Shown here: positions 51,611 through 61,191 of the stretch, piece after piece
Layout of the letters: every line of letters begins with the position of its first letter
Numbering within the stretch: the stretch's first letter is position 1
NCBI RefSeq assembly: GCF_900111005.1
Contig: NZ_FOFV01000021.1
Span: forward strand, 62,001 to 126,000
Direction of reading: 5' to 3'
DNA length: 64,000 bases
From: Lentzea albida
GTDB taxonomy: Bacteria; Actinomycetota; Actinomycetes; Mycobacteriales; Pseudonocardiaceae
Made by a program: the position numbers and the translations under genes
Notes under the pieces: model-generated
What the model was told of the DNA's origin: nothing
Databases searched by the model: none
What the model saw: the letters and a program-made list of their open reading frames with translations, nothing else

Positions 51611-52714
51611 TCAGGAGGCCGCGGCGGCCAGTGTCGGGAGAGAGGGCTCCAGCGGCGCGTCGTCGGGGAGCACGAGGGTCGCGTCGCCGATGCGGCGGGT
51701 GGTTCGGGTGACCCCGATCGCGAGCAGTCCGTCGCGGGTGCCGGCACGCGTGGTCACGACTCCTGCCGGGGTGTCCAGGCGCAGCACCTCCAGCTCACCG
51801 GCGGTGAAGTCGGACAGGACGGTACCCGGCGTGTGCGCGGCGGCGGTGAGTGCGACGCTGCCGGTGATGGCCAGTGCGGGGTGCGTCCGTCCCATGGACA
51901 GCATCCGCACGGTCACGTCGGAACGGTCCGGACGGCCTGGGCTGACCAGGGCGAGCTTGGGGGTGGCGCGGGCGGCCCCGGCGGGATCGCCGGCGAGACC
52001 CATGCGGACCGCGGCGCCGCGCCGAATGCGGTCCAACCGGGCCAGCAGGTCCTCCTGGGCGTCCAGGTCGGCCGGGGACGCCTCGCCGTCCACCCCGACC
52101 TCGTCCGCGGGGACGAGGACCACGGGCGCTCCGGCGTCGAGCAGCGTGACGCGCACCCCGTCCACCACGTCGACCGCGTTGCCCGTGGGCAGCAACGCCC
52201 CGGTCGTGCGGCCGGCCGGGTCGACGAACCACAGCCGCACCCCGAGGCCGGGCTGGACCACCCCGGGAATGCGGTCTCCGCCCTCCTCGGTCACCCGGCC
52301 CGAGGGCGTCGGCACGTCCACGACGATCAGCTGGCCGGTATTGGTGTTGTTGATCCGCACCGTGGTCACCTCGCCGGTGGGCACCACCCAGCCGCGCCGC
52401 AGCGCGTAGGGCCCGACGACCGCCGAGCAGTTGCCGCAGTTGCTCGTCCAGTCCACCCGCCCGTCGGCGATCCCGATCTGGGCGAACGTGTACTCGACGT
52501 CGATGCCCGGCCGATCGCTCCTGGCGAGCACGACGGCCTTGCTGGTCGTGGACGTCGCCCCGCCGACACCGTCGACCTGGCGCGGGTCAGGGCTTCCGTA
52601 CAACCGCAGCAGCACCTCGTCGAGGTCGCGACCGGGCACCGCGAGCACCTCGCGCTCGAACACCCAGCACTTGCTGGTACCACCGCGCATCCAGGTCGCC
52701 GGTATCTCTCGCAC
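51611..52714 (-). CDS. PrpF-family isomerase/tautomerase
   Basis: About 367 residues. Opens with the PrpF signature REIPATWMRGGTSKCWVFE, followed by GGATSTTSKAVVLA and SNCGNCSAVVGPYAL (the Cys-rich turn), and later PKLALVSPGRP, DVTVRMLSMGRTHPALAITGSVALTAAAHTPGTV. PrpF proteins isomerise aconitate, 2-methylaconitate or oxalomesaconate (diaminopimelate-epimerase fold). With a MatC-like carrier and a LysR regulator it forms a compact tricarboxylate or oxalomesaconate utilisation unit. GTG 52714 is preceded by AAGGAG at 5 bp; the frame is open further upstream without homology. Confidence 0.9.
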   Translation of the reverse strand: MREIPATWMRGGTSKCWVFEREVLAVPGRDLDEVLLRLYGSPDPRQVDGVGGATSTTSKAVVLARSDRPGIDVEYTFAQIGIADGRVDWTSNCGNCSAVVGPYALRRGWVVPTGEVTTVRINNTNTGQLIVVDVPTPSGRVTEEGGDRIPGVVQPGLGVRLWFVDPAGRTTGALLPTGNAVDVVDGVRVTLLDAGAPVVLVPADEVGVDGEASPADLDAQEDLLARLDRIRRGAAVRMGLAGDPAGAARATPKLALVSPGRPDRSDVTVRMLSMGRTHPALAITGSVALTAAAHTPGTVLSDFTAGELEVLRLDTPAGVVTTRAGTRDGLLAIGVTRTTRRIGDATLVLPDDAPLEPSLPTLAAAAS

Positions 52715-52817
52715 AGCCACTCCTTCGCGACGGTGCAACACCGCCGTAACAACCAGGGGACGACGGCAACGGTGACTCGCACGGACCTTGAACACAATCA
52801 CGGAAAACTCGACACCC

Positions 52818-52914
52818 GTGAAGCTTTGCTTCACGCTCAGATGCCCCGAAACAAGCGCCTGCACAGGTCGACTCGGCGAACTTCCCAGATGCACGCCTCG
52901 CTTCAGCGTGAAGC
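52818..52914. promoter_or_regulatory. GCTTCA/TGAAGC palindromes in LysR divergent region
   Basis: GTGAAGC-TTT-GCTTCAC (52818-52834) and GCTTCA-GCG-TGAAGC (52900-52914) share the half-site GCTTCA; a further GTGAAG is near 52939. Together with the divergent layout they look like LysR recognition and activation sites for the PrpF-MatC unit. Confidence 0.65.
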
Positions 52915-52979
52915 TAAGCTGCACGGAAGGTGCATATGAGTGAAGTTTCGAACCTGAGTTTTCTCGCAGAGGAGCGGCC

Positions 52980-53891
52980 ATGTTGGACGTCCGGCGTCTG
53001 GCACTGCTCGCGGCCGTGGTGGACACGGGTTCCATGACCGCCGCCGCGGACCAGCTGGGGTACACCCCGTCGGCGGTCTCCCAGCAGCTGCGCCGGCTCG
53101 AGGTGGAGGCCGGTCAGCCGCTTCTGCACCGGCAGGCCAGAGGGGTGCGTCCCACCGAGGCGGGCGCCCTGCTGGCAGGCCACGCCCGCCACGTCCTGCG
53201 CAGGCTCAGCGCCGCCGAGGCCGACCTCGCCGAACTCGCGGGACTGCGCCGCGGCACCGTCGCTATGGGCGTGTTCCCGACCATCGCGAGCGCCCTGCTC
53301 CCCCAGGCCGTCAGCCGGTTCCGCCGCCAGCACCCCGATCTCCGCCTGGACGTGCGCAGCACCCGCTTCGACGAACTCGTCGAGCTGCTGGAGGACGGCA
53401 CCGTCGGCATCGCCCTGCTGTGGGACTACGCGTGGAACCGCGTCGACGTGCCCGACATCTCCCTCACCCCGCTGCTGGACGACCCGACCGTGCTCATCGT
53501 CGCCGCCGACCACCGCCTGGCCCGCAAGCGGTTCACCACCATGTCCGACCTCGCCCACGAGGACTGGATCGTCCGCGCCCACGAGCACCCGGTGGCCGAG
53601 GTCCTCGAACGCAGCTGCCGCGCGGCCGGGTTCACCCCGAAGATCGCGTTCGAGGCCAACGACTACCAGGAGGCGCAGGCCATGGTCAGCGTCGGAGTGG
53701 GAATCGCGTTGGCGCCCAGGACCGCGGTGCGCAACCCGCACCCGGACGTCCGCGTGCTCGCGCTCGGCACGGACGTGCCGGCCCGCCGCGTTCTGCTGGC
53801 ACACCGCCAGGACCGGCTCCGCGCACCGGCCGAACTCGCCCTGCACCAGCTCGTGGTCGACGTCGCCCGCGAGTACCAGACCAAGCCCTGA
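52980..53891 (+). CDS. LysR family transcriptional regulator
   Basis: Protein of 303 residues: N-terminal LysR helix-turn-helix (LDVRRLALLAAVVDTGSMTAAADQLGYTPSAVSQQLRRLEVEAGQPLLHRQARGVRPTEAGALL) and a periplasmic-binding-like effector domain (GTVAMGVFPTIASALLPQAVSRFRRQHPDLRLDVRS). ATG 52980 with GAGGAGCGG. Divergent from PrpF-MatC; repeated GCTTCA half-sites lie between. Most likely activates that pair when a tricarboxylate-type inducer is present. Confidence 0.93.
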   Translation: MLDVRRLALLAAVVDTGSMTAAADQLGYTPSAVSQQLRRLEVEAGQPLLHRQARGVRPTEAGALLAGHARHVLRRLSAAEADLAELAGLRRGTVAMGVFPTIASALLPQAVSRFRRQHPDLRLDVRSTRFDELVELLEDGTVGIALLWDYAWNRVDVPDISLTPLLDDPTVLIVAADHRLARKRFTTMSDLAHEDWIVRAHEHPVAEVLERSCRAAGFTPKIAFEANDYQEAQAMVSVGVGIALAPRTAVRNPHPDVRVLALGTDVPARRVLLAHRQDRLRAPAELALHQLVVDVAREYQTKP

Positions 53892-53936: not shown

Positions 53937-54743
53937 TCAGGTGCCGACCACCTCGACGGACTCGATGGCGGCGGCCGCGAGCGGGGCCGCCGTCTTCACG
54001 TAGCGCGTGGCGAGGGACTGGAACACCTGCTCCGCCTCGATCGCGGGCCAGTCGCGGTCGAGCAACTCGGCCGGAAGGTGCGGGTCCTGCCGCACGAGGT
54101 CGAGCCAGTCGGCGTGCAGCACCAGCTGGCGGGCCAGGTCGTCGGGCAACCCGTCGTCCGGCTCCCGCCAGCGCGCCAGGAAGTCCTGGTAGCGCGCGGC
54201 GATGGCCGCCGTGTCGAACGCACGCCGCGCCAGGTCCGCCGCCTCCGTCGGCTTCGCGTGCTGCGCGGTGAACACCGTGACGTTGCCGGCGAGACCGAGG
54301 CTCTCGACCACCTCGGTGACGTCACGGGTGCCGGGCGCGATCCAGAGCCCGTTCTGCACCGGGCCGAAGCCCGCCCACTGCAGTTGCGAGCGCAGGTCGT
54401 GCCGTTCGCCGCGGCGGCCCTCCGGCAGCGAGAAGCCGACGAGGGTCCACGTGCCGTCCCAGTCCCTGTTCACGGCGCCGCGCTGCCAGATCCGGCGTTC
54501 ACCGTCGCGCAGCACGTCCGTCGCGCGCGGCGTGAGTCCGAAGTAGACCTTGCGGCCGTTGCGGTGCTTGGTGAGCAGCCCGCGCGAGGTCATGCGAGTC
54601 AGCGTCGAGCGCACCGCCTCCTCCGAGACGTCCACGCGCCCGAACACGTCGATGAAGCTGCCCGAGTAGACCGCGATGCCGCGGTCGAACACGTACAGGC
54701 CCAGGAAGTTGAGCATCAAGGACTGGGGTGTCACCGGCACCAC
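53937..54743 (-). CDS. PaaX-family transcriptional regulator
   Basis: Protein of 268 residues: PaaX-like N-terminal winged helix (LMLNFLGLYVFDRGIAVYSGSFIDVFGRVDVSEEAVRSTLTRMTSRGLLTKHRNGRKVYFGLTPRA) and C-terminal effector domain (NRDWDGTWTLVGFSLPEGRRGERHDLRSQLQWAGFGPVQNGLWIAPG). PaaX proteins repress aryl-acetate-type pathways and are released by an aryl-CoA. Divergent from the SDR-amidohydrolase-MaoC-MFS-CoA ligase operon, whose CoA ligase would make the inducer. GTG 54743 is the best start; no strong ribosome site. Confidence 0.92.
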   Translation of the reverse strand: MVPVTPQSLMLNFLGLYVFDRGIAVYSGSFIDVFGRVDVSEEAVRSTLTRMTSRGLLTKHRNGRKVYFGLTPRATDVLRDGERRIWQRGAVNRDWDGTWTLVGFSLPEGRRGERHDLRSQLQWAGFGPVQNGLWIAPGTRDVTEVVESLGLAGNVTVFTAQHAKPTEAADLARRAFDTAAIAARYQDFLARWREPDDGLPDDLARQLVLHADWLDLVRQDPHLPAELLDRDWPAIEAEQVFQSLATRYVKTAAPLAAAAIESVEVVGT

Positions 54744-54825
54744 GATACATGTTGGGCAGCATCTAGACGAGCGTCATGAATGTGCCCTACTTTGGTGGCG
54801 AGCCCCCACCGAGAGGACTCGCCTG

Positions 54826-55704
54826 ATGGAGCTGTCGGGAAAGGTCGCGATCGTCACCGGCGCCGGCCGCGGACTGGGACGGGCGTACGCGGAAGCGCTG
54901 GCGCGCAACGGGGCCCGGGTCGTCGTCAACGACGTGGACGACTCCGCCGAGGAGGTCGCGGCGGGCATCGGCGGCCGGGCGGTGATCGCGCCGGTCGGGT
55001 CCGCCGAGACCGCCGACCTGCTCGTCTCCGCGGCCGTCGAGGAGTTCGGGCGGCTCGACGTGCTGGTCACCAACGCGGGCATCCTGCGCGACCGCGTGCT
55101 GTGGAAGATGAGCGACGACGACTTCGACGCCGTGATCGACGTGCACCTGCGCGGCACGTTCACCTGCGCCCGCGCGGCGGCGGTGCGGCTGCGCGAGCAG
55201 GGCACCGGTGGCAGTCTCGTGCTGGTCTCGTCCCCCGCCGGGCAGCGCGGCAACTTCGGACAGACCAACTACTCCGCCGCCAAGGCCGGGATCGCGGCCA
55301 TGGCGCGGACCTGGGCGCTGGAGCTCGCCAGGTCCGGCATCGCGGTCAACGCGGTCGTCCCGGTCGCGGCCACCGAGATGACGCGGACGATCCCCGTCTT
55401 CGCGCCGTTGATCGAGGAGTCGGAACGGACCGGCGCGCCGCTGCCGTCGTGGGTGCGGCACGACGAGGGCCTCGGCACGGTCGAGGACGTGGCCGAACTG
55501 ATCGTCTACCTGGCGTCGGACGCGGCGAAAGGCGTGACGGGGCAGGCGATCGGCATCGGTGGCGACCGGCTCGCGCTCTGGTCGCACCCCGCCGAGAAGC
55601 AGGTCGAGTTCTCGGATGGCGGTTGGAAGGCCGGCCAGATCGCCGAGCGGTTCGCCGAGTTCGAGCCCGAGACCTACGGGATCCCGCAGCCGGTGGCGCC
55701 GTGA
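54826..55704 (+). CDS. (3R)-hydroxyacyl-CoA dehydrogenase-like SDR
   Basis: SDR of 292 residues: VAIVTGAGRGLGRAYAEALARNGARVVVNDV is the multifunctional-enzyme-2-like opening used by (3R)-hydroxyacyl-CoA dehydrogenases, with NAGIL, VSSPAGQRGNFGQTNYSAAKAG (Ser, Tyr, Lys) and an extended C-terminus (DRLALWSHPAEKQVEFSDGG) typical of that group. In the proposed pathway it would oxidise a 3-hydroxy-acyl-CoA to the beta-keto thioester, the counterpart of CouN. First gene of a tightly overlapping operon; divergent from PaaX. Confidence 0.9.
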   Translation: MELSGKVAIVTGAGRGLGRAYAEALARNGARVVVNDVDDSAEEVAAGIGGRAVIAPVGSAETADLLVSAAVEEFGRLDVLVTNAGILRDRVLWKMSDDDFDAVIDVHLRGTFTCARAAAVRLREQGTGGSLVLVSSPAGQRGNFGQTNYSAAKAGIAAMARTWALELARSGIAVNAVVPVAATEMTRTIPVFAPLIEESERTGAPLPSWVRHDEGLGTVEDVAELIVYLASDAAKGVTGQAIGIGGDRLALWSHPAEKQVEFSDGGWKAGQIAERFAEFEPETYGIPQPVAP

Positions 55705-56576
55705 ACGTCGACGAGATCGTGGCCATCGACGTCCACACCCACGCCGAGATCTCGCGCGACGGGCACAGTTCGCTGAGCCCCGCGTTGCTCGAGGCGTCGG
55801 CCAAGTACTTCAAGGCGGCCCACCGGCAGCCGACGATCGCCGAGACCGCCGCGCTCTACCGCGAGCGGAGGATGGCCGCGGTGATCTTCACGGTCGACGC
55901 CGAGCACGCGACCGGTCACCCGCGCATCTCCAACGAGGAGGTGGCCGCGTCCTGCGCCGAGCACGCCGACGTGCTGATCCCGTTCGCGAGCGTCGACCCC
56001 TGGAAGGGCAGGGCGGCTCTGAGGGAGGCGCGGAAGCTCGTCGAGGAGCACGGCGTGCGGGGCTTCAAGTTCCACCCGAGCCTGCAGGACTTCTCGCCGA
56101 ACGACCGGATGGCGTACCCGCTGTACGAGGTGATCGAGGAGCTCGGCGTCCCCGCCCTCTTCCACAGTGGACAGACCGGGATCGGCGCGGGCGTCCCCGG
56201 AGGCGGCGGCATCCGGCTCAAGCACTCCAACCCCATGCTCGTGGACGACGTCGCCGTCGACTTCCCGCACCTGAAGATCGTGCTCGCCCACCCCTCGTTC
56301 CCCTGGCAGGACGAGGCGCTCGCGGTGGCGACGCACAAACCGTTCGTGCACATCGACCTGTCCGGCTGGTCGCCGAAGTACTTCCCGCCGAACCTCGTCC
56401 GCTACGCCAACACCCTGTTGCAGGACAAGGTGCTGTTCGGCTCGGACCACCCCGTGATCACCCCGGACCGCTGGCTGGCGGACTTCGCGAAGCTCGACAT
56501 CTCCGACGAGGTCCGCCCGAAGATCCTCAAGCACAACGCCGCCCGTCTGCTCGGACTCGTGAAGGAGGACGCGTGA
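55701..56576 (+). CDS. Amidohydrolase-2 family hydrolase (CouO-like)
   Basis: Protein of 291 residues, TIM-barrel metal hydrolase: IDVHTHAEIS (HxH metal pair), RGFKFHPSLQDFSPND, FHSGQTGIGAGVPGGGG, LAHPSFPWQDEAL and FGSDHPVITPDRW (metal Asp). Members act as decarboxylases or hydrolases; one, CouO of Rhodococcus, cleaves 4-hydroxyphenyl-beta-ketoacyl-CoA by hydrolytic retro-Claisen reaction. The placement between an SDR and a MaoC gene next to a CoA ligase is the same set of parts, so a beta-ketoacyl-CoA hydrolase role is proposed. GTG 55701 overlaps the SDR stop by 4 bp. Confidence 0.85.
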   Translation: MNVDEIVAIDVHTHAEISRDGHSSLSPALLEASAKYFKAAHRQPTIAETAALYRERRMAAVIFTVDAEHATGHPRISNEEVAASCAEHADVLIPFASVDPWKGRAALREARKLVEEHGVRGFKFHPSLQDFSPNDRMAYPLYEVIEELGVPALFHSGQTGIGAGVPGGGGIRLKHSNPMLVDDVAVDFPHLKIVLAHPSFPWQDEALAVATHKPFVHIDLSGWSPKYFPPNLVRYANTLLQDKVLFGSDHPVITPDRWLADFAKLDISDEVRPKILKHNAARLLGLVKEDA

Positions 56577-57031
56577 CCACCACCGTGAACGGAATCGCAG
56601 AGCTGAGGGCCCTGGCGGGCAGGGATCTCGGGCACACCGACTGGCTCCAGGTCGACCAGGACCGGGTCGACACGTTCGCCTCCGCCACCGACGACCACCA
56701 GTGGATCCACGTCGACCCGGAACGCGCCGCCGCCGGGCCGTTCGGCGGCACGATCGCCCACGGCTACCTGACGCTGGCGCTGCTCATCCCGCTGATGACC
56801 GAACTGCTGGAGGTCTCCGGCGTGCGGATGAGCCTCAACTACGGGCTGGACAAGGTGCGGTTCCCCGCGCCCGTGCCGGTCGGCGCCAAGATCCGGCTCC
56901 GCGGAACCGTCGCGTCCGTCGAGGACGTGCCGGGCGACGGCGTGCAGCTCACCGTCGACTTCACGGTCGAGATCGAGGGCTCCGCGAAGCCCGCTTGCGT
57001 CGCACGTGCCGTCTACCGCCACTACACATGA
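56573..57031 (+). CDS. MaoC-like (R)-enoyl-CoA hydratase
   Basis: Protein of 152 residues with the hotdog hydratase signature: DFASATDDHQWIHVD as VDTFASATDDHQWIHVDPERA, and GGTIAHGYLTLALLIPLM. The Asp and His of the hydratase-2 motif are present. It hydrates a trans-2-enoyl-CoA to the 3R-hydroxy form, feeding the adjacent (3R)-hydroxyacyl-CoA dehydrogenase-like SDR. GTG 56573 overlaps the amidohydrolase stop by 4 bp. This is the hydration counterpart of CouM in function, though whether by common descent is not determined. Confidence 0.92.
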   Translation: MTTTVNGIAELRALAGRDLGHTDWLQVDQDRVDTFASATDDHQWIHVDPERAAAGPFGGTIAHGYLTLALLIPLMTELLEVSGVRMSLNYGLDKVRFPAPVPVGAKIRLRGTVASVEDVPGDGVQLTVDFTVEIEGSAKPACVARAVYRHYT

Positions 57032-57040
57032 GGTGAAGCC

Positions 57041-58357
57041 ATGGCGCCAACAACGCAGTTACGCCGTGCCGTTACGTCCAGCTTCCTCGGCAGTGTGATC
57101 GAGTACTACGACTTCCTGCTCTACGCCACCGCGTCCGCGATCGTGTTCAACAAGGTCTTCTTCTCCTCGCTGGACCCGCTGGTCGGCACGATCGCGAGCT
57201 TCGGCACCTTCGCCACCGGCTACCTCGCCCGCCCGCTCGGCGGTGTCCTGTTCGGACACTACGGGGACCTGCTGGGACGCAAGAAGATGCTCGTGCTCAC
57301 CATGAGCCTGATGGGCGTGGCGAGCTTCCTGATCGGCCTGCTGCCCACCTACGCCCAGGTCGGCTGGCTCGCTCCCGCCGGCCTGATCCTGCTGCGGGTG
57401 CTGCAGGGCATCTCCGTCGGCGGTGAGTGGGGCGGAGCCGTGCTGATGTCGGCCGAGCACGCCACCTCGCGGCGCGGGCTGTGGGCGAGCTTCACCAACG
57501 CCGGCGCGCCGTGCGGCATGGTGCTCTCGACCGCCGCCCTGACCGGAACCGCCGCGCTCGTCGGCGAGCAGGCGTTCCTCGAGTGGGGCTGGCGGGTGCC
57601 GTTCCTGCTCAGCGTCGTGCTGCTCGGCATCGGTCTGTTCGTGCGGTTGAAGGTCGAGGAGACCCCGGTCTTCCGGGCCGGGCGCAGGCCGGGCTCCATG
57701 CCGTTGCTCGACGTGCTGCGCAACCACCCGCGCACGCTGGCGCTCGGCATCGGCGTCGGTCTCGCCGCGTTCGTCGCGCAGTCGACCCTGACGACGTTCG
57801 TGCTGGCGTACGGAGTGCAGGCGGGGGAAAGCAGGCAGATGATCCTCAACGCGCTGACGCTCTCCTCGGCGCTCGCGGTGCTCGGCATCATCGGCTGGTC
57901 GGCGGCGTCGGACAGGTTCGGGCGCAGGCCGGTCGTCCTCGCGGGCGCCGTGCTCATGGCGGCGTTCGGCTTCGCGCTGTTCCCGCTGGTGGACAACGGG
58001 TACGTCGTCATCGCACTGGTGCTCGGCCAGGCCGTGATCCACCCGATGATGTACGGGCCGCTCGCCGCGCTGTACAGCGAGCTGTTCACCACCGGCAGCC
58101 GCTACACCGGCGCCTCGCTCGGTTACCAGCTCGCGGGTCTCGGCGCCGGGTTCGCGCCGCTGATCTTCGCGCAGGTGCAGAAGTCGTCGGGCACGGGCGC
58201 GATCCCGTTCATCCTCGCGGCCTTCTGCCTGCTCACCGTCGTGTGCACGGTGGTCCTCCGGGAGACCAGCCGGACCAGCCTGACAGGAGACAGGGATGCG
58301 GAACTCGGGACTGGGCAGCTGGCCGCACCGCCGCGCACGCATGGCGCCGAAGCGTAA
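57041..58357 (+). CDS. MHS-family MFS transporter
   Basis: Protein of 438 residues with 12 membrane segments and the metabolite:H+ symporter marks: SSFLGSVIEYYDFLLYATASAIVFNKVFF, GHYGDLLGRKKMLVLTMSLMG and LQGISVGGEWGGAVLMSAEHA. MHS members import organic acids such as alpha-ketoglutarate, proline or shikimate, and aromatic acids. Position within the operon makes uptake of the acid activated by the next gene likely. ATG 57041 follows TGAGGTGAAGCC. Confidence 0.9.
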   Translation: MAPTTQLRRAVTSSFLGSVIEYYDFLLYATASAIVFNKVFFSSLDPLVGTIASFGTFATGYLARPLGGVLFGHYGDLLGRKKMLVLTMSLMGVASFLIGLLPTYAQVGWLAPAGLILLRVLQGISVGGEWGGAVLMSAEHATSRRGLWASFTNAGAPCGMVLSTAALTGTAALVGEQAFLEWGWRVPFLLSVVLLGIGLFVRLKVEETPVFRAGRRPGSMPLLDVLRNHPRTLALGIGVGLAAFVAQSTLTTFVLAYGVQAGESRQMILNALTLSSALAVLGIIGWSAASDRFGRRPVVLAGAVLMAAFGFALFPLVDNGYVVIALVLGQAVIHPMMYGPLAALYSELFTTGSRYTGASLGYQLAGLGAGFAPLIFAQVQKSSGTGAIPFILAAFCLLTVVCTVVLRETSRTSLTGDRDAELGTGQLAAPPRTHGAEA

Positions 58358-59732
58358 GGCGTTCACCTACAACGGGGTCTCGACGACGTACGACGAGCTG
58401 GCCGTCCGCACGACCCGCCTCGCGTGGCGGTTGCGGGAGCTCGGCGTGCGGCACGGCGACCGGGTCGCGTACCTCGGCCCGAACCACCCGTCGTTCGCCG
58501 AGACCATGTTCGCCGCGCACCAGCTGGGCGCGATCTTCGTGCCGCTGAACTTCCGCCTCACGCCCGCGGAGGTGAACTACCAGCTGGCCGACTGCGGCGC
58601 GCACGTCCTCGTGCACGCGCCTTCCCACGCCGCCGAGCACCCGCGCGCCGTGTCGCTCGCGGAGTACGAGGACTGGCTGCTGGGCGGCTCCGACGAACCG
58701 GTCGACGAGCCCGTCGACATCGGCGAACCCGCGCTGATCCTCTACACCTCGGGCACGACCGGCAGGCCCAAGGGCGCGGTGCTGACCCACGCCAACCTGC
58801 TGTGGAACACCTTCAACCTGATGATCGGCGTCGACCTCGCCTCCGACGAGGTCGCGCTGGTCACCGCGCCGCTGTTCCACGTCGCCGCGCTGGCCCAGAC
58901 GTTGCTGCCCACCTTCGTGAAGGGTGGGCACTGCGTCATCACCTCGGGCTGGGACGTCACGGCGTGCGTGTCGTTGATCGAAGAGCACGGCGTGACGTCG
59001 ATGTTCGGCGTGTCGACCATGTTCGCGGACCTGGCGTCGTCGTCGTTGTGGCACACGGCGGACCTGTCGTCGTTGCGGGTGCTGCTGTGCGGCGGGGCGG
59101 CGGTGCCGGACGCGGTGATCCGCGCCTACCAGGACCGCGGCCTGGTGTTCTGCCAGGGCTACGGCCTCACCGAGACCGCGCCGGGCGCCACGTTCCTGGA
59201 GGCTTCCGACAGCGTTCAGCGCGCGGGTTCGGCCGGTCCGTGCGTGTTCTTCGGCGATCTGAGGCTCTCGGACGTCGGTGAGGTCGAGGTGCAGGGCCCG
59301 AACGTGACCCCGGGCTACTGGAACGACCCGGTCGCCACCGCGGCGGCGTTCACCGAGGACGGCTGGTTCCGCACCGGCGACCTCGGCCGGCTCGACGACG
59401 GCCACCTGTACGTCCTCGACCGCCTCAAGGACATGTACATCTCCGGCGGCGAGAACGTCTACCCGGCCGAGGTCGAGAACGCGATCACCTCACACCCGGA
59501 CGTCGCCGAGGTGGCGGTCGTCGGGGTGCCGGACCAGCGCTGGGGCGAGGTGGGACGCGCGTTCGTGCGCCCGCGCGACGGCGCCGTCGTGGACGCCGCC
59601 GGGTTGCGGGAGTTCCTGGTGCCGCGCCTGGCGAAGTACAAGATCCCCGTGCACGTCGAGGTGGTCGCCGAACTGCCGCGCACGGGGTCCGGGAAGGTCC
59701 TCAAGCCCGCGCTGCGCCGGGTGCCGTTGTGA
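58296..59732 (+). CDS. Acyl/aryl-CoA ligase (FadD/4CL-like)
   Basis: Adenylate-forming enzyme of 478 residues: P-loop YTSGTTGRPKG near 150, GYGLTETAPGATF, GWFRTGDLGRLDDGHLYVLDRLKDMYISGGENVYPAEVE (hinge) and C-terminal PRTGSGKVLK with the catalytic Lys. It activates a free acid, probably an aromatic or phenylpropenoid one in view of the neighbouring enzymes and PaaX. ATG 58296 has CAGGAGACAGGG and lies inside the end of the MFS gene (62-bp overlap), unusually long. Convergent with a TetR gene (32-bp overlap). Confidence 0.9.
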   Translation: MRNSGLGSWPHRRARMAPKRKAFTYNGVSTTYDELAVRTTRLAWRLRELGVRHGDRVAYLGPNHPSFAETMFAAHQLGAIFVPLNFRLTPAEVNYQLADCGAHVLVHAPSHAAEHPRAVSLAEYEDWLLGGSDEPVDEPVDIGEPALILYTSGTTGRPKGAVLTHANLLWNTFNLMIGVDLASDEVALVTAPLFHVAALAQTLLPTFVKGGHCVITSGWDVTACVSLIEEHGVTSMFGVSTMFADLASSSLWHTADLSSLRVLLCGGAAVPDAVIRAYQDRGLVFCQGYGLTETAPGATFLEASDSVQRAGSAGPCVFFGDLRLSDVGEVEVQGPNVTPGYWNDPVATAAAFTEDGWFRTGDLGRLDDGHLYVLDRLKDMYISGGENVYPAEVENAITSHPDVAEVAVVGVPDQRWGEVGRAFVRPRDGAVVDAAGLREFLVPRLAKYKIPVHVEVVAELPRTGSGKVLKPALRRVPL

Positions 59733-60333
59733 CCGCGTGACGACACAGGAGCGTCTGGACCGCCTCGTCCACCGAGTGGGCCAAGGCCTTCTCGGTGGGC
59801 GCCCAGTTCACCAGCAGCATCCGCGGCCAGAACGCGAAGTTCGAGATCATGCCGAGGAACTGCGTCGCCGTGCCGACCGGGTCGTCGACCACCAGCGTGC
59901 CGGCGTCGCGCTCGGCCACCAGGTAGTCGCGGACGGAGTCGAAGAACGGCTGCTTGCCGAGCTTGAACTGCGTCTGGCCGAGCTCGGGGAAGCGTGGCGC
60001 CTCAGCGATGACGATGCGGAACAGCGCGACCATGCCCGGCCGCGTCAGCAGCGCCACGTACCGGTCGCCGAGCACTTTGAGCCCCTTCGCGGGGTCGCCC
60101 GGCGGCGGCGTGAGCGCGCCCTCCTCCGTGCGCCAGTAGTCGGTGACGATCGCGTCGAACAGCTCGGCCTTCGTCGGGAACTGCTTGAACAGCGTCGCCT
60201 TCGAGACCCCGGCCGCGTCGGCGATGCGCGCGAGTGACGTCTTGTCGTAGCCGGACTCCAGGAACAGCGTCGTCGCGGCGTCGACGATCGCCGTCCGCTT
60301 CTGCTCCGCCAGACGCTCGTGGTAGGTCGGCAC
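59701..60333 (-). CDS. TetR family transcriptional regulator
   Basis: Protein of 210 residues: QKRTAIVDAATTLFLESGYDKTSLARIADAAGVSKATLFKQFPTKAELFDAI is a typical TetR DNA-binding domain; the C-terminal part (GDRYVALLTRPGMVALFRIVIAEAPRFPELG) resembles AefR-like regulators. GTG 60333; CATACT lies 6 bases upstream, again possibly leaderless. Divergent from an SDR gene with two related palindromes between; it probably represses that gene and itself. Confidence 0.92.
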   Translation of the reverse strand: MPTYHERLAEQKRTAIVDAATTLFLESGYDKTSLARIADAAGVSKATLFKQFPTKAELFDAIVTDYWRTEEGALTPPPGDPAKGLKVLGDRYVALLTRPGMVALFRIVIAEAPRFPELGQTQFKLGKQPFFDSVRDYLVAERDAGTLVVDDPVGTATQFLGMISNFAFWPRMLLVNWAPTEKALAHSVDEAVQTLLCRHAVTTAPGAARA

Positions 60334-60352
60334 GCCCCCAGTATGCCACGAG

Positions 60353-60415
60353 GTGAGTCACTTGACTCACCATCGGTGTCATGTCTACCGTTCCGAGGTG
60401 AGTCACTCAACTCAC
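60353..60415. promoter_or_regulatory. TetR operator pair GTGAGTCA...ACTCAC
   Basis: GTGAGTCACTTGACTCAC (60353-60370, 8-bp arms, 2-base centre) and GTGAGTCACTCAACTCAC (60398-60415, 6-bp arms). Start-to-start distance is 45 bp. The second ends 17 bp before the SDR start. Confidence 0.85.
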
Positions 60416-60432
60416 CACTGGAGGAATGGACG

Positions 60433-61191
60433 ATGGGACGCTTCGACGGACGGACGGTGCTCGTCACCGGCGCGACGAGCGGGATGGGTGCGAGCCACGT
60501 GCGGGGCTTCCACGCCGAAGGGGCGCGGGTCGTGATCGGCGCGCGGGACCTGGCGGCAGGCGAGGCGTTCGCCGCGGAACTGGGCTCGCGGGCGGTCGCC
60601 GTGCGCCTCGACGTGACGTCCGAGGCGGACTGGACCGCCGCACTGGAGGCCGCCGGGCCGATCTCGGTGCTGGTCAACAACGCGGGCGCCCAGCACCCCG
60701 CCGCGCTGATCGAGGACACCGCGCTGCAGGTCTGGGAGCGGACGCTCGCGGTGAACCTGACCGGGCAGTTCCTGGGGATCAAGCACGCCGCGGCGTCGTT
60801 GCGACAGGCCGGTGGAGGATCGATCGTGAACATCGCCTCGACCATGGGCAACGTCGGTCAGGCCTACTACGCGCCTTACGTGGCGAGCAAGTGGGCGTTG
60901 CGCGGACTGACCCGCACGGCGGCGCTCGAACTCGGCCGCGACGGGATCCGGGTGAACTCGGTGCACCCCGGTGTGGTGGCGACGCCGTTCATCACCGAAC
61001 CCGTGGCGGACGGGCAGCCAGCCATCGGCGACCTCTACTCCCCCGCCCCGTTCGCCGTGCCGCGACTCGGGACGCCGCAGGAGGTCACCGCGCTCGTCCT
61101 GCACCTCGCCTCGGACGACGGGGCGTTCGCGACCGGGGCGGAGTTCGTGCTGGACGGCGGTCTGCTGCTCGGACCGGCACTAGCCGCGTAG
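60433..61191 (+). CDS. SDR family oxidoreductase (FabG-like)
   Basis: SDR of 252 residues: VLVTGATSGMGASHVRGF, NNAGAQHPAALIED, SIVNIASTMGNVGQAYYAPYVASKWAL (Ser, Tyr, Lys) and C-terminal FVLDGGLLLGPA. Most like 3-alpha-(or 20-beta)-hydroxysteroid dehydrogenases and beta-ketoacyl reductases. ATG 60433 with GGAGGAATGG. Controlled by the divergent TetR. Not part of the Cou-like operon on current evidence. 3' end overlaps the convergent SARP gene by 12 bp. Confidence 0.9.
   Translation: MGRFDGRTVLVTGATSGMGASHVRGFHAEGARVVIGARDLAAGEAFAAELGSRAVAVRLDVTSEADWTAALEAAGPISVLVNNAGAQHPAALIEDTALQVWERTLAVNLTGQFLGIKHAAASLRQAGGGSIVNIASTMGNVGQAYYAPYVASKWALRGLTRTAALELGRDGIRVNSVHPGVVATPFITEPVADGQPAIGDLYSPAPFAVPRLGTPQEVTALVLHLASDDGAFATGAEFVLDGGLLLGPALAA

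Follow-up and report, generated by a model that had tools for sequence, protein, structure and literature searches.

PaaX in the place of CouR at a predicted hydroxycinnamate operon of Lentzea albida

The 64,000-nucleotide stretch of DNA analyzed here (the window), from the soil actinobacterium Lentzea albida, contains a run of five same-strand genes that lies divergently from a gene for a PaaX-family regulator. Judged from its sequence relationships, this operon is the actinobacterial Cou pathway, which acts on hydroxycinnamates by an amidohydrolase (retro-Claisen) route. The pathway is documented and its enzymes are ordinary. What differs from the known Cou pathway is the exchange of the regulator, and this regulatory variant appears to be new within the open-access literature searched, where PaaX control of a Cou operon was not found described. 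We estimate a probability of roughly 80% that the five genes serve hydroxycinnamate uptake and side-chain shortening and are repressed by PaaX through an upstream dyad, with a hydroxycinnamoyl-coenzyme A (CoA) thioester as the most likely effector.

The operon and its enzymes

The operon encodes a short-chain dehydrogenase/reductase (SDR), an amidohydrolase, a MaoC hydratase, a symporter of the MHS family and a ligase (Table 1), and this gene content is directly observed. An earlier reading made from the sequence alone (the sequence-only reading) had described the PaaX-divergent run, and all of its genes are present, with Pfam matches above cut-off for these five and for the PaaX gene. It had also described the junctions as 4-bp overlaps or short gaps. 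Two 4-bp overlaps and a 9-bp gap agree with this description, but the MHS and ligase genes overlap by 62 bp, which is more than it implied. The longer overlap is probably genuine because the ligase start at 58296 places residue 1 against residue 1 of feruloyl-CoA synthetase 8wev, and because an overlap recurs in the genus (a rough profile-based estimate gives about -50 for the window and for nine other loci of the genus, L148-L155 and L167).

A survey of the five-gene neighborhood, which had been proposed as a check, covered 163 loci that all have the hydrolase: 140 homologue regions, 10 plasmid loci, 12 couR loci and the window. The 140 regions represent 140 of the 178 other homologue matches in two lists (95 and 85 matches, with the window gene in both). 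SDR, amidohydrolase and MaoC genes occur together in one same-strand run in 97/163 loci, and the full order PaaX< SDR> amidohydrolase> MaoC> MHS> ligase> is found in 16/163, ten of these 16 being the window and its genus. Because of this recurrence, the gene arrangement is not due to chance.

Cou loci were sought by CouR identity with the CouR chain of PDB 3fm5 as the query, and 22 loci were returned. CouR is 96-99% identical in five Rhodococcus loci (R. opacus, R. wratislaviensis, R. koreensis, R. jostii NBRC 16295 and R. tibetensis) and 61-77% identical in seven further loci, five from Saccharopolyspora species and two from Nocardia species. In all 12 of these strong CouR loci (5/5 Rhodococcus, 7/7 others), the CouR gene diverges from an SDR-amidohydrolase-MaoC cassette. 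Each stretch fetched also includes ligase and MHS genes, save that the two Nocardia loci showed no MHS. The SDR-amidohydrolase-MaoC cassette was not seen in the other 10/22 loci, where the CouR matches have at most 38% identity.

Aligned-part identities between the window and the R. opacus locus (L221) are 66% for the SDR (over 229 aligned residues), 63% for the hydrolase, 57% for MaoC, 50% for MHS and 44% for the ligase, an orthology-level similarity to the Cou set that can be stated directly. The sequence-only reading had proposed a side-chain-shortening pathway equivalent to Cou, and the CouO-type hydrolase, the feruloyl-CoA-synthetase-like ligase and the shared gene set all agree with this proposal. 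It had further expected a variant that is both regulatory and enzymatic, with the MaoC hydratase as the enzymatic novelty. The second part is ruled out because the Rhodococcus clusters identified through couR have a counterpart of each window enzyme, including a MaoC gene that immediately follows the amidohydrolase gene; the regulatory part, PaaX for CouR, stands. In the naming of the Cou genes we take couM to be the hydratase and couN the dehydrogenase. The names used in the available part of the CouR paper are couN, couR, couT, couH, CouL and CouO (PMC4737184).

The amidohydrolase is predicted to be a CouO-type β-ketoacyl-CoA hydrolase with a retro-Claisen-type cleavage. Its residues D10, H12, H14, H155, H197 and D249, presumably the expected metal-site positions of the amidohydrolase superfamily, show conservation of 99.5% or more across 163 aligned homologues. 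PF04909 matches at eight places in the genome that holds the window (9.44 Mb, 40 contigs) in a profile search, and among the matches listed only the window gene reaches E 1e-40 against the hydrolase (12/21 first-look candidates scored). No NCBIfam model matched the hydrolase at E 0.001, and the solved structure closest to it is that of BB4693, an uncharacterised protein (3irs, E 3.2e-20). In a Rhizobium plasmid cluster (L058), a gene with the annotation '4-hydroxyphenyl-beta-ketoacyl-CoA hydrolase' is 61% (tblastn) to 64% identical to the window hydrolase and is accompanied by genes for feruloyl-CoA synthase, an enoyl-CoA hydratase and a MarR regulator. These are the gene kinds given for the Agrobacterium fabrum ferulate pathway in the available part of its description (PMC7797058), and they support a hydroxycinnamate reading.

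Two plasmid loci have neighbors of separate interest. The Rhizobium cluster (L058 8919-16879) lies directly beside TRAP-type transporter genes, which are followed by type I-C CRISPR genes. In the second locus, on a Haloferax plasmid (L067 4983-10188), an enoyl-CoA hydratase gene and paaABCDE genes adjoin the gene for a haloarchaeal hydrolase relative (42.9% identity).

The PF04909 superfamily holds both decarboxylases and CouO-type hydrolases, and membership in it is what favors an assignment of the amidohydrolase as a γ-resorcylate-type or other decarboxylase in an unrelated aromatic-acid pathway. This assignment, an alternative that the sequence-only reading had itself named, is scarcely credible: γ-resorcylate decarboxylase 2dvt matches the hydrolase at E 0.51 only and carboxyvanillate decarboxylase 4icm at E 0.012, but the hydrolases of couR-linked and Rhizobium hydroxycinnamate clusters are 63-64% identical to it.

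Substrate and fate of the product

The ligase is predicted to be a hydroxycinnamate-CoA ligase. Its nearest solved structure is feruloyl-CoA synthetase 8wev (55% identity over 470 aligned residues), which does not point to the preference for aliphatic acids that the sequence-only reading had said would count against it. Many fatty-acyl-CoA ligase models also match, and the 25 among the matches listed are every one under its cut-off.

Evidence from Streptomyces connects these enzymes with ferulate. In the available part of a study of Streptomyces scabies, the products of the consecutive tags SCAB_15591 (MaoC), 15601 (ligase), 15611 (amidohydrolase) and 15621 (dehydrogenase/reductase) are all among 69 proteins seen only with trans-ferulic acid (PMC6904314). 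Their order fits the SDR-amidohydrolase-ligase-MaoC arrangement of a Streptomyces operon in our survey (L065), a likeness of tag order and protein kinds rather than of sequence.

The same enzymes and chemistry might instead serve cinnamate, a methylenedioxy- or longer-chain arylpropenoate, or an α,β-unsaturated aliphatic acid. The enzymes PipU, PipV, PipW and PipX are described as similar to hydroxycinnamate enzymes and turn such acids into benzoates with acetyl-CoA. They act on piperic acid and reportedly on fatty acids too, with crotonic and trans-2-dodecenoic acids among the tested substrates (PMC12753220), and because of this report sequence alone does not settle the substrate. The fatty-acyl-CoA ligase matches also favor this alternative. 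Against it are the feruloyl-CoA synthetase that is nearest to the ligase, the appearance of the Streptomyces counterparts only with ferulate, and the presence of a pca gene in the genome, and we regard it as unlikely. Plant cell-wall acids, ferulate and coumarate among them, are very probably the compounds whose side chain the operon shortens.

A non-oxidative route is a further alternative to this side-chain shortening. Two Streptomyces V-1 enzymes for the conversion of ferulate to vanillin are reportedly Fcs and Ech. In an Fcs/Ech-type route, a ligase and a hydratase/aldolase would yield vanillin or 4-hydroxybenzaldehyde, which would suit the feruloyl-CoA-synthetase-like ligase and has a precedent in the ferulate-to-vanillin conversion by the two V-1 enzymes, as given in the available part of that report (PMC3696112). 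It is highly improbable here, since there is no crotonase-type Ech among the five operon genes, which include MaoC, SDR and CouO-type hydrolase genes instead, and since the latter three occur together in 97/163 loci.

A plausible sink for the product of side-chain shortening is encoded elsewhere in the genome. A protocatechuate 3,4-dioxygenase beta gene (pcaH) scores above cut-off (343 bits) on contig C13, and a p-hydroxybenzoate-hydroxylase-like gene that scores 393 bits lies 2 kb from it.

The regulator and its predicted operator

PaaX stands in the place of CouR at the window operon, as the sequence-only reading had proposed. CouR-type control, by a divergent MarR gene with a CouR box, was not found in the window, where the divergent gene is a PaaX gene. 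The divergent neighbor within 450 bp of the 97 cassette operons is MarR in 49, PaaX in 27 (window included) and IclR in one; none was recognized in 20, a group that may hide regulators missed by the profiles or the distance limit, such as locus L158 with its broken-up PaaX match. Over all operon types in the 163 loci, the counts are 55 MarR, 33 PaaX, three IclR and 72 with none recognized. The 33 PaaX loci represent 14 genera (window genus counted once) from three coded families plus Nonomuraea. Four loci have a shortened PaaX operon type (L159 and L181, with PaaX< amidohydrolase> MHS> ligase>, and L165 and L183) in which the hydrolase is first after the PaaX promoter and the run is without SDR and MaoC.

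The exchange of regulators is directly observed, and its history was traced on two quick hydrolase trees in which many forks are weak: a FastTree tree of 163 rows (midpoint root) and an IQ-TREE tree of 92 rows (outgroup root). When only the PaaX- and MarR-labelled loci are counted, the label needs three changes on both trees. With four unlabelled rows also counted on the 92-row tree, MarR needs three changes and PaaX four (shuffled means 29 and 27). On the 163-row tree, the PaaX label needs nine changes and the MarR label 13 when each is set against all other loci, including those with no recognized regulator. These trees suggest that the regulator label changed at least three times, and their roots do not fix the order of the regulators.

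The window PaaX protein has N-terminal, Cas2-like central and C-terminal domains, with Pfam PaaX, PaaX_M and PaaX_C all above cut-off. Its best PDB match is 8a39, a repressor of phenylacetic acid degradation (E 6.5e-19). It does not fit PaaX in the strict sense of a phenylacetate regulator, as it scores 127.9 bits against the TIGR02277 PaaX equivalog (cut-off 264.55) and lacks paa neighbors. In a quick midpoint-rooted tree, with several long branches flagged and one row (L178_b) that is probably a spurious second hit, it groups with the operon-linked PaaX proteins of other genera, apart from the four other PaaX-like genes of its own genome. Two full-length PaaZ-type genes score above cut-off at C19:107225-109234 and C19:262886-264892, on a contig other than that of the operon. 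Because both are on C19, phenylacetate degradation is probably encoded away from the window PaaX.

The intergenic regions of PaaX operons contain a two-level concentric dyad with the core GGCA-N7-GAC-N4-GTC-N7-TGCC, which overlies a promoter core with a -35-like TTGAC followed by a TACTTT- or TAACGT-like element. The window core is exact (0 mismatches, 54755-54786), and the -35-like hexamer in its genus is TAGACG. Among the 33 PaaX loci, the core is exact in 11, has at most one mismatch in 24 and has at most two in 27. None of the 55 MarR loci has an exact core or one with up to two mismatches. Shuffled controls never fell below three mismatches for the PaaX regions and reached two in 0.5% for the MarR regions.

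The CouR box ATTGA-N5-TCAAT lies over the -35 region according to the available part of the CouR paper (PMC4737184). In our MarR loci it is exact in 15/55 and within one mismatch in 35/55, and it occurs within one mismatch in 0/33 PaaX loci, window included. The dyad is thus confined to the PaaX set and the box to the MarR set, with no crossing at one mismatch or fewer; both the conservation of these motifs and their mutual exclusion are observed.

Because the dyad had been read off the loci on which it was counted, it was also tested on others. A search of 200 genomes of a second family gave 98 PaaX matches, and 70 loci were examined, of which 11 came from already used genomes and 59 were new. 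The dyad is present with at most two mismatches in 52/59 new loci (shuffled means 4.4-5.3 mismatches). In the 27 loci with a strong SDR or amidohydrolase match on the divergent strand within the stretch, there are 0, 1, 2 and 3 mismatches in 8, 13, 5 and 1 loci, respectively (26/27 within two). The 32 others have 1, 2, 3, 4 and 5 mismatches in 17, 9, 2, 2 and 2 loci (26/32 within two). Being found in these loci too, the dyad is more aptly called the predicted operator of the window PaaX branch than of the operon alone. PaaX in the other group faces MHS transporter genes, ligase genes (L294 and L295; 762-772 bits on the ligase profile) or ABC solute-binding-protein genes, with Peripla_BP_6 in the four loci tested (L297, L305, L310 and L319), one of which is from an already used genome. 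This placement of PaaX and the dyad suggests that the branch runs a wider regulon that includes uptake genes.

The exact core occurs twice in the 9.44-Mb genome, in the window and at C37:28655-28686, and a reversed-pattern control gives no match. A generic sigma-70 promoter scan and a terminator scan of the region found nothing. A repeat search of the 91-bp intergenic stretch missed the dyad, which has short, gapped half-sites, and reported only a hairpin at 54797-54823.

The window PaaX might be a phenylacetyl-CoA-responsive paa regulator that sits beside the operon by accident, a possibility favored by its family membership and by the two paaZ-type genes of the genome. Yet those genes are on another contig, the divergent PaaX gene and the dyad are kept at the operon in at least three coded families, the exact core is found at two genome places, the equivalog score is under its cut-off, and the protein groups with operon-linked PaaX in the quick tree. 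An accidental neighbor is therefore quite unlikely.

In the preferred reading of PaaX-controlled side-chain shortening, the MHS symporter would import a hydroxycinnamic acid and the ligase would convert it to the cinnamoyl-CoA. MaoC would hydrate this thioester to the β-hydroxyacyl-CoA, the SDR would oxidize it to the β-ketoacyl-CoA, and the CouO-type amidohydrolase would cleave the latter hydrolytically to acetyl-CoA and a free benzoate (4-hydroxybenzoate or vanillate). The benzoate would then pass to protocatechuate and the β-ketoadipate pathway. We infer these activities and the substrate range from orthology and from published work on relatives. PaaX is known to respond to aryl-CoA compounds, and the 8a39 entry name points to phenylacetic acid degradation. 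The ligand of CouR is p-coumaroyl-CoA in the available part of the CouR paper (PMC4737184). Given these two effectors and the operator position, we infer that PaaX would bind the 34-bp dyad over the -35 region and repress the operon until the ligase product accumulates, and that it is most likely released by the hydroxycinnamoyl-CoA that the ligase makes.

Several points weigh against this reading. Activity and binding in this strain are predictions from sequence. R. jostii RHA1 itself is absent from the returned loci, so the equation of CouM with MaoC rests on relatives (R. opacus, R. jostii NBRC 16295 and others). The window operon is without an acyl-CoA dehydrogenase (ACAD) gene. Its ligase shares 55% identity with feruloyl-CoA synthetase but 44% with the CouL counterpart of L221, so the substrate preference may differ. 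The p-hydroxybenzoate-hydroxylase-like genes are under the TIGR02360 cut-off (best 393 versus 538.7 bits). Ten of the 33 loci that supplied and first counted the dyad are of one genus, and by genus (best locus each) it is within one mismatch in 9/14 and within two in 12/14. The held-out loci are all of one family with several genera recurring between the sets, so they are not phylogenetically independent, and 32/59 were not seen facing an SDR or amidohydrolase gene. A longer dyad pattern with up to two mismatches has one genome match, as does its reversed control.

A broader reading, which we consider a somewhat better than even bet, joins these observations. An actinobacterial PaaX branch would sense hydroxycinnamoyl-CoA and act as a repressor through a concentric 34-bp operator of its own. 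At one and the same operon promoter, this branch and the unrelated MarR-type CouR would have been exchanged at least three times, with the operator rewritten around a kept -35 element. Elsewhere the operator precedes MHS, ligase and ABC solute-binding-protein genes, which would make up a PaaX-run uptake-and-catabolism regulon for lignin-derived acids.

Table 1. Positions of the operon genes, the regulator gene and the predicted control elements in the window
Feature	Position	Strand	Remarks
PaaX-family repressor gene	53937..54743	-	GTG start; divergent from operon
Predicted PaaX operator, concentric dyad GGGCA-N7-GACG-N2-CGTC-N7-TGCCC	54754..54787	.	34 bp, centre 54770.5
Promoter-like TAGACG-18 bp-TACTTT overlapping dyad	54764..54793	+	Predicted by comparison with TTGACG...TACTTT-like cores of other PaaX loci
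SDR dehydrogenase, CouN-like	54826..55704	+	PF13561 165 bits
Amidohydro_2 gene, CouO-like	55701..56576	+	PF04909 194.6 bits
MaoC enoyl-CoA hydratase, CouM-like	56573..57031	+	PF01575 88 bits; best PDB match Rv0130 2c2i, E 2.9e-55
MHS-family metabolite:H+ symporter, CouT-like	57041..58357	+	TIGR00883 367 bits, under cut-off 443
AMP-binding ligase, CouL / feruloyl-CoA synthetase-like	58296..59732	+	Best PDB match 8wev, E 3.6e-155

On the PaaX side, the operon is flanked by a LysR regulator gene (52980-53891, +) just upstream of PaaX, beside a long frame (51611-53065, -) that we take to resemble PrpF/4-oxalomesaconate-tautomerase-type proteins. On the other side, a TetR gene (59701-60333, -) and an SDR gene (60319-61191, +) form a divergent pair, with a 32-bp overlap between the TetR gene and the end of the ligase gene. 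TetR and SDR-like genes also lie downstream of the operon in L148 and L152.

Comparison with known systems

If correct, these predictions describe a natural case in which one transcription-factor family has repeatedly taken over from another at one conserved operon, and the operators of both can be read from the sequence. They also predict a new effector class for PaaX repressors, give a likely function to generically named operon genes (SDR, amidohydrolase, MaoC, MFS, AMP-ligase) that recur in many actinobacteria, and make the PaaX system a candidate biosensor for hydroxycinnamoyl-CoA.

The closest known counterpart is the Cou system of R. jostii RHA1 (CouR/CouNOM/CouHTL). It has the same five enzyme and transporter kinds, the same SDR-amidohydrolase-MaoC order divergent from the regulator (seen in R. 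opacus and R. jostii NBRC 16295) and an operator over the -35 region. The window differs in having PaaX and a concentric 34-bp dyad rather than MarR-type CouR and the CouR box, in containing the MHS and ligase genes inside the operon rather than in a separate run as in Rhodococcus, and in having no ACAD gene there. The Streptomyces L065 operon (MarR-SDR-amidohydrolase-ligase-MaoC) has the same enzymes, with the SDR 79%, the hydrolase 86% and MaoC 71% identical to those of the window. It differs in its MarR regulator and in the ligase gene ahead of MaoC, and MHS was not seen in the L065 stretch. The ferulate-specific SCAB_15591-15621 products of S. scabies are likened to this operon by tag order.

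PipU, PipV, PipW and PipX of Rhodococcus ruber No. 14, compared by description, share a β-oxidation-like shortening to a free aromatic acid but are part of a 48-gene piperine cluster. The A. fabrum hydroxycinnamate cluster (Atu1415-1421, HcaR) and the Rhizobium L058 cluster share the same overall route, with 64% identity between the window and L058 hydrolases. They differ in a crotonase-type hydratase (L058), a different ligase and dehydrogenase, and a MarR regulator. Finally, the phenylacetyl-CoA repressor PaaX (PDB 8a39; known from E. coli) shares the full three-domain PaaX architecture with the window regulator. The latter is set apart by weak similarity to 8a39, a score under the equivalog cut-off, paaZ-type genes that lie elsewhere and a different predicted effector.

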